A stretch of 38,299 nt of DNA from contig VFKA01000049.1 of assembly GCA_009885795.1 (NCBI GenBank), forward strand, positions 1-38,299. The letters are read 5' to 3'. Positions 28,474 through 29,112 of the stretch are shown here, in pieces. A program made the position numbers and the translations under genes. The stretch comes from Rhodospirillales bacterium. GTDB lineage: Bacteria > Pseudomonadota > Alphaproteobacteria > Dongiales > Dongiaceae. Below the pieces are notes generated by a model. That model saw only the letters and a list, made by a program, of their open reading frames with translations. It had not been told where the DNA came from and ran no database searches. Position 1 is the stretch's first letter; each line of letters opens with the position of its first letter.

Positions 28474-29085
28474 ATGCCCGACTTTTCCTTGGAGATCGCG
28501 CAGGCCGAGCGCCCCGTCGCCGGCATCGACGAGGCCGGACGCGGCCCCCTCGCCGGTCCCGTGGTCGCGGCCGCCTGCATTCTAGGGTCCGACATGCCGG
28601 CCGGGATCGCGGCGGCGATCGACGATTCCAAGAAGCTCACGAGGGGTCGGCGCGAGAGACTGTTCGAATGGCTGTCCGCCAACGCGGAGTTCGGCGTCGG
28701 CGAGGCCAGCGTCGAGGAGATCGACACCGTGAACATTCTCCAGGCCACGCTGCTGGCGATGCGCCGGGCGGTCGCCAAGCTCCCGCGTGCGCCGGCCGTG
28801 GCGCTGATCGACGGCAATCGCTGCCCGGACCTCGACTGCCGGATGCAGGCCGTCATCGGCGGCGACGGAATCTCGCTCTCGATCGCGGCGGCGTCGATCA
28901 TCGCCAAGGTGACCCGCGACCGGCTCATGGCCGGGCTCGATTCGTGTTATCCGGGATACGGCTTCGCCCGCAACGCCGGCTATGGGACGCTTGAGCATCG
29001 AGCGGCCCTACTACATCTAGGGGTGACGCCGGCGCACCGTCGTAGTTTTAGTCCAATATCTCAACTTGTTCTTTTAAAAGATTGA
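28474..29085 (+). CDS. rnhB: Ribonuclease HII
   Basis: A 203-residue RNase HII that nicks the RNA strand of RNA-DNA hybrids and removes misincorporated ribonucleotides. GIDEAGRGPLAGPVV (17-31) contains catalytic D19 and E20; ALIDGNRCP holds D113; SIIAKVTRDRLM and YGFARNAGYGT follow. Starts at ATG 28474, five bases after the radical SAM stop. The last codons change sharply: CTA CTA CAT CTA and then AGT TTT AGT CCA ATA TCT, ending LVLLKD. The usual family end after HRRSF is conserved in the protein but written with AT-rich codons, because the region doubles as the ccrM leader. Confidence 0.93.
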   Translation: MPDFSLEIAQAERPVAGIDEAGRGPLAGPVVAAACILGSDMPAGIAAAIDDSKKLTRGRRERLFEWLSANAEFGVGEASVEEIDTVNILQATLLAMRRAVAKLPRAPAVALIDGNRCPDLDCRMQAVIGGDGISLSIAAASIIAKVTRDRLMAGLDSCYPGYGFARNAGYGTLEHRAALLHLGVTPAHRRSFSPISQLVLLKD

Positions 29086-29112
29086 TTCATAAAGACTCTT
29101 GACCGATGACTC
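29084..29112 (+). promoter_or_regulatory. Cluster of three GANTC sites upstream of ccrM
   Basis: GATTC at 29084-29088, GACTC at 29094-29098 and GACTC at 29108-29112 lie within 29 bases, 25 to 53 bases before the ccrM ATG. GANTC is the target of CcrM itself. In Caulobacter, GANTC sites in the ccrM leader couple its transcription to hemimethylation. A TTAA half-site (29074-29077) precedes them, but no complete CtrA box is seen. Confidence 0.6.

Follow-up and report, generated by a model that had tools for sequence, protein, structure and literature searches.

GANTC sites occupy conserved places on a predicted ccrM core promoter in Alphaproteobacteria

Background

CcrM is the model cell-cycle DNA methylase, and the timing of ccrM outside Caulobacter is in question. 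In a stretch of 38,299 bp from a Dongiaceae genome (the whole stretch of DNA analysed, referred to below as the window) three GANTC sites stand directly in front of a ccrM gene. A first-pass annotation placed them in the ccrM leader, where methylation might feed back on expression. Do these sites belong to the regulation of ccrM, and, if so, on which part of the promoter do they act and what would read them? The candidate reader is GcrA, whose homologues are conserved in parallel with CcrM according to a passage of PMC3973325. PMC7987155 ranks ccrM among the likely core targets of GcrA outside the Caulobacterales, and infers that GcrA control of ccrM was lost in Caulobacterales and kept in many other alphaproteobacteria.

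Results

The ccrM locus and its GANTC sites

The three sites are present as first described, 25-53 bases 5′ of the ccrM ATG at 29137. The features of the region, with offsets counted from TTGAC, are as follows.

28474..29085, + strand: rnhB, ribonuclease HII (PF01351, NF000595), its 3′ end overlapping GANTC site 1
29084..29088, + strand: GANTC site 1 (GATTC), offset -15, overlapping the rnhB stop codon
29094..29098, + strand: GANTC site 2 (GACTC), offset -5, directly adjoining TTGAC
29099..29104, + strand: predicted -35 element, TTGACC
29108..29112, + strand: GANTC site 3 (GACTC), offset +9, in the spacer between -35 and -10
29122..29127, + strand: predicted -10 element, CAGGAT, 17 bases after TTGACC
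29133..29135, + strand: predicted transcription start, placed by spacing at about 29134, 1-4 bases 5′ of the ATG
29137..30258, + strand: ccrM, beta-class adenine DNA methyltransferase of 373 aa with a C-terminal RAMA domain (NF050803, PF01555, PF18755)
29154..29158, + strand: additional GANTC within the ccrM coding sequence, away from the conserved promoter places

The stop codon of rnhB (TGA, 29083-29085) falls partly within site 1, so that all three sites are situated in, or at the edge of, the 51-base gap separating rnhB and ccrM. The sole terminator candidate between the two genes is a weak terminator-like hairpin at 29030-29042, inside the end of rnhB, and transcription may read through from rnhB into ccrM. 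In a profile search the ccrM product matched PF01555 (4.8e-69) and the RAMA family PF18755 (2.9e-13); its match to NF050803 (610 bits) stays under the curated cut-off of 830, which was itself built on Caulobacter-type CcrM. The gene at 29137..30258 joins a CcrM-like sequence to N6_N4 methylase and RAMA domains, the combination by which CcrM was recognized here, and its GANTC specificity is predicted. Near ccrM, at 31386-31904 of the window, lies a short gene whose product has a DciA domain (PF05258, helicase-loader family).

The triple before ccrM is the only one in the window that fits within 60 bp. GANTC as such is rarer than expected: the 38,299 bp hold 94 copies (one every 407 bp), and shuffled sequence holds 187. 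This agrees with a passage of PMC3973325 describing GANTC as scarce in alphaproteobacteria with CcrM and more than 1.5-fold enriched in their intergenic regions. Shuffling of the local 150 bp gave at least three GANTC in 3.4% of shuffles, and when the 94 sites of the window were placed at random an equally tight triple arose somewhere in 14% of trials. The strong local enrichment that had been claimed is thus weak on the window alone, and it becomes strong by comparison with relatives.

Number and position of the sites are conserved among relatives

Upstream sequences of 150 bp were examined at 110 ccrM loci of relatives, 101 of them distinct. These 101 sequences hold 331 GANTC, compared with a mean of 77.4 (sd 7.1, maximum 92) in 100 shuffles; at least two sites occur in 89 and at least three in 70 of them (shuffle mean 4.0), and GANTC is absent from the 150 bp in eight. 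GANTC is over-represented 4.2-fold in the ccrM upstreams; of the 16 palindromes built like it, the runner-up reaches 1.6-fold. Eight GANTC are found within about 100-160 bases upstream of ccrM in the relatives L020, L023, L101 and L104.

Offsets were taken around every TTGAC, irrespective of GANTC (113 TTGACs, in 88 of the 101 upstreams). Against a background of 1.1 per offset, GANTC peaks at -15/-14 (n=43), -5 (n=28), +8 to +10 (n=69) and +19 (n=60), and a minor peak at +2 (n=19) corresponds to TTGACTC, in which TTGAC merges into GANTC. The fourth GANTC, at +19, ends on the C of a CANNNT -10 element. In 84 aligned promoters the CANNNT columns hold C in 74, A in 75 and T in 74, the promoters having been chosen by a score that uses GANTC positions, which partly favours the C and does not favour the A and T; for the remaining 17 of these 101 closer relatives no alignment on TTGAC-N18-CANNNT was possible. 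At the spacer place the middle base of GANTC varies freely (G27 A22 C16 T4), as does the offset (+8, +9, +10), and for this reason the conserved thing there is taken to be the methylation site itself. The middle base at the +19 place is constrained (C48 A16 T2 G0), and the -10 GANTC may in part be a sequence contact.

Other parts of the same loci served as a control, for which 72 ccrM loci of at least 5 kb were used. In the ccrM upstreams 45 of 80 TTGACs are followed by both the spacer and the -10 GANTC. Elsewhere this is true of none of 637, the spacer site occurring alone 12 times and the -10 site alone once. Likewise, at least three GANTC per 150 bp were counted in 47 of 72 ccrM upstreams versus 32 of 3088 other windows. 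Alignment of upstream regions, the check proposed with the original observation, therefore bears it out in both the number and the position of the sites.

A predicted core promoter with a very short leader

On this alignment the three sites of the window are predicted to occupy the -15, -5 and +9 places of a conserved sigma70-type promoter, TTGAC-N18-CANNNT. The +19 GANTC has been lost in the window (GCCCTC) while CAGGAT remains; all four sites are present in its nearest relatives, L010 and L007. A consensus promoter scan called no sigma70 promoter at ccrM of the window, and CAGGAT matches TATAAT at only three of six positions. The alternative view of CAGGAT as a Shine-Dalgarno sequence was rejected, since the relatives show CANNNT with variable middle bases and not GGA, and a -10 element is preferred.

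If the predicted start holds, the ccrM mRNA of the window would be nearly leaderless, with about 3 bases ahead of the ATG. The first in-frame start codon follows the -10 element by 4-9 bases in 50 of the 84 promoters (9 in the window); the other 34 lack one at a leaderless distance, start codons being uncertain. Whereas the first-pass annotation had put the sites in the ccrM leader, conservation locates them within the core promoter, near the -35 element and in the spacer; as judged by the comparison of sequences, the regulatory feature is real and conserved, and its placement in the leader is not borne out. Initiation downstream of all three sites, with methylation having no effect, had been named as evidence against methylation feedback. 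By spacing, the predicted start (about 29134) does lie downstream of all three, which is one half of that pair and is itself a prediction, and sites on the core promoter would be better placed than leader sites to affect initiation.

Distribution in the class

A CcrM match at 1e-80 was found in 284 of 387 genomes of the class. From these, 100 genomes were sampled, about one per family (95 families), without regard to the promoter and with a leaning to genomes for which a match position was given. Their ccrM upstreams hold 275 GANTC against 72.5 expected; a spacer or -10 GANTC occurs in 59 of the 100, both in 30 and neither in 41, and many of the genomes without these sites are small and AT-rich.

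The layout and GcrA

GcrA is encoded in the genome of the window (G000:C60:124812-125177; PF07750, 127 bits) and was found in 43 of 61 relatives. Site 3, at +9, lies between the -35 and -10 elements of the predicted promoter, as GcrA promoters have it, yet the extended GcrA motif YGAKTCK, as given in a section of PMC7987155, has no match on either strand at the three sites (tGATTCa, aGACTCt, tGACTCg).

In the class-wide sample PF07750 matched in 79 of the 100 genomes and in none of the other 21; in its own control it also matches one archaeon, so that the positives may be too many and the negatives are unaffected. A 24-sequence GcrA profile (E 0.01) likewise matched in none of the 21 and found two positive controls, all candidates being scored except in G049 (150 of 219). 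Two of the 21, G202 and G171, have GcrA-bearing siblings and are probable assembly gaps; they were dropped, leaving 19. For eleven families assembly gaps were rejected as the reason, every genome tested (two to five each) being without GcrA: f64 (4), f30 (5), f72 (3), f125 (4), f105 (5), f106 (4), f63 (3), f91 (2), f137 (2), f26 (2) and f34 (3). In f36 it was absent from three of four genomes. The search among siblings scored 84 candidates per genome in the larger genomes.

Of the 19 genomes without detectable GcrA, 11 (nine families) have both the spacer and the -10 site at ccrM and 15 have at least one; among 16 further GcrA-less siblings both sites occur in nine, at least one in 13 and none in three. 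The layout is therefore not restricted to genomes with GcrA, and on these gene and site counts it is independent of GcrA presence. Both sites were found in 12 of the 21 GcrA-less versus 18 of the 79 GcrA-bearing genomes (Fisher p 0.006), a comparison that includes the two genomes later dropped and ignores kinship.

A similar layout before ftsB and transposase genes

The pattern TTGACN{2,6}GANTCN{3,7}GANTC matched 62 times in 20 of 21 genomes, compared with 6 matches of its reversed form. Judged by their coordinates, 15 of these 62 matches belong to ccrM promoters and 16 stand directly before ftsB. The latter gene, identified by PF04977 of its product, is present in 54 of 61 genomes. Thirty ftsB upstreams were inspected by eye (relatives L325-L354), and in 24 of them a pair of GANTC occupies the spacer and the -10 place; where the ATG was read, it follows TTGAC by about 36-38 bases. 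The genome of the window has a similar GANTC-tiled, apparently leaderless ftsB promoter (G000:C87:13341; L190:842-880). One genome with the ftsB pair, G045, is without GcrA. Another, G032 (L340), also keeps the pair. GcrA gave no match in this genome and the methylase search only a weak one (2.7e-12), so that a clear CcrM was not detected; the gene may be missing from the assembly, which is 93% complete.

Three of the five TTGAC-GANTC-GANTC matches in the genome of the window precede transposase genes (G000:C75:688-713, G000:C68:66-91 and G000:C87:3314-3339; loci L193, L192 and L191). The transposases are of the IS66 family (PF03050; an identical stretch of 26 bases is present on a second contig) and of IS4/5 type (PF13340), and their start codons lie 32-35 bases past TTGAC. 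A further pattern, GANTCTTGAC, gave 15 matches in this genome against 2 for its reversed form. It was rejected as a genome-wide regulon marker, most matches lying within reading frames, for example in the part of an ABC-type protein that reads ILDE, and few being promoter-like.

Discussion

Proposed mechanism and alternatives

The conserved number and position of GANTC make methylation-dependent control of ccrM, or feedback on it, likely. From the comparisons presented here we have good confidence that the methylation state of these sites has some effect, and moderate confidence that all three belong to a ccrM core promoter that is sensitive to methylation. The ccrM spacer place (about -27 to -23) agrees with the GANTC places given in PMC4287350 for cell-cycle promoters of Caulobacter, -29 in ctrA P1 and -24 in podJ P2. 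CcrM would methylate the adenines around the -35, in the spacer and at the -10 of its own promoter. Replication would leave the sites half methylated and raise ccrM transcription; once enough CcrM had been made, full methylation would lower initiation, and CcrM would thereby limit itself once per replication round. The negative sign of this feedback is our choice, at roughly even odds, made because sites at the -35 and -10 that are fully methylated late in the cycle would most simply hinder initiation; with the opposite sign, GcrA bound at the spacer could activate.

The layout is kept in families without detectable GcrA, and we infer from this that GcrA is dispensable for the basic effect: the mark could act on RNA polymerase-sigma70 directly or via CcrM itself and, where GcrA exists (the genome of the window included), its binding at the spacer site would add to the effect. 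A further-reaching reading, somewhat less likely than not, is that the ccrM promoter may be a GcrA-independent epigenetic switch in which m6A marks alter sigma70 initiation directly or through the RAMA domain of CcrM. GcrA would then be a later or additional reader that some families have lost or never held, and the ftsB promoter and two transposase promoters would fall in the same class of nearly leaderless promoters timed by CcrM.

It is possible, if doubtful, that GcrA is instead the required reader, which binds the methylated sites of the ccrM promoter, contacts sigma70 and activates in a replication-coupled positive feedback. Part of PMC3667746 describes the binding of GcrA to methylated GANTC and its recruitment of RNA polymerase, which, with the ranking of ccrM in PMC7987155 and the presence of GcrA in the window's genome and most relatives, speaks for such a role. 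Against a required GcrA stand the layout at most of the GcrA-less ccrM genes and their siblings, and the lower frequency of both sites in GcrA-positive genomes, uncorrected for kinship.

Less probable, and in our view unlikely, is that CcrM would be its own regulator, its catalytic and RAMA domains binding the site cluster and blocking RNA polymerase, with the sites being an operator and not a mark. The presence of RAMA in CcrM and the coverage of the -35 and spacer by the sites would suit such an operator, and GcrA would be unnecessary; against it, a methyltransferase usually departs from its site after methylation, and the sequence features fit this model and the mark-based one alike. It seems quite improbable that the letters (TTGAC, and TGACTCA ahead of the -10) serve as contacts of the promoter or of other proteins, with GANTC methylation incidental: the -10 site does favour TGA(C/A)TCA, and several genomes keep GTGATTC at this place of the ftsB promoter and have no further GANTC there, but contacts would hardly account for four places, a spacer site with free middle base and variable offset, or the absence of the spacer and -10 combination from other TTGACs of the loci. 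A cluster arising by chance in an intergenic gap richer in AT, to which the modest odds from the window alone might point, is contradicted by the conserved positions, the class-wide counts and the within-locus control and can be set aside as highly improbable.

Comparison with known systems

The layout of the ccrM promoter, its presence without detectable GcrA and the similar layout at ftsB were not found in the literature searched, nor was any work naming FtsB, GcrA and methylation together. Within that literature all three, the layout, its GcrA independence and the parallel at ftsB, appear to be new, the general kind of control being already known. A fixed GANTC promoter code that can be read from sequence would allow direct tests of methylation self-timing. 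Families in which CcrM and the tiled ccrM promoter occur and GcrA is undetectable would demonstrate GcrA-free reading of methylation, and could serve as natural systems for finding how methylation gets read.

The GcrA/CcrM promoters of Caulobacterales (ctrA P1, podJ P2, mipZ) resemble the ccrM promoter in having GANTC between or near the -35 and -10, the effect of methylation on initiation being our inference for ccrM. They differ in that ccrM has up to four ordered sites in register with both elements instead of one, the layout occurs also where GcrA was not detected, and the window sites miss YGAKTCK.

The ccrM gene of Caulobacter crescentus encodes an enzyme of the same family. Its two GANTC sites lie in the leader, whereas the leader in the window is predicted at about 3 bases with the sites 5′ of the predicted start, and given this core-promoter placement the comparison is loose. 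In Caulobacter crescentus ccrM is activated by CtrA, as stated in an excerpt of PMC2877005, and GANTC methylation ‘most probably’ affects ccrM itself, in the words of one section of PMC3973325. The CtrA box TTAA-N7-TTAA, with up to one mismatch, has its sole match in the window at 32232 and none at ccrM, and a CtrA box at this promoter was rejected.

Restriction-modification methylases of the CfrBI type repress their own promoter by methylating it. They share with ccrM a methylase target inside its own core promoter and no separate reader; CfrBI has one site, methylated at cytosine, in a plasmid system, whereas here several adenine sites belong to a chromosomal orphan methylase. Dam controls the transposase promoter of IS10 through an adenine methylation site that overlaps the -10 and is half methylated after passage of the fork. 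The regulated gene at the ccrM locus is the methylase itself, and the closer parallel to IS10 is provided by the transposase promoters in the genome of the window, which are a possible CcrM counterpart of Dam control.
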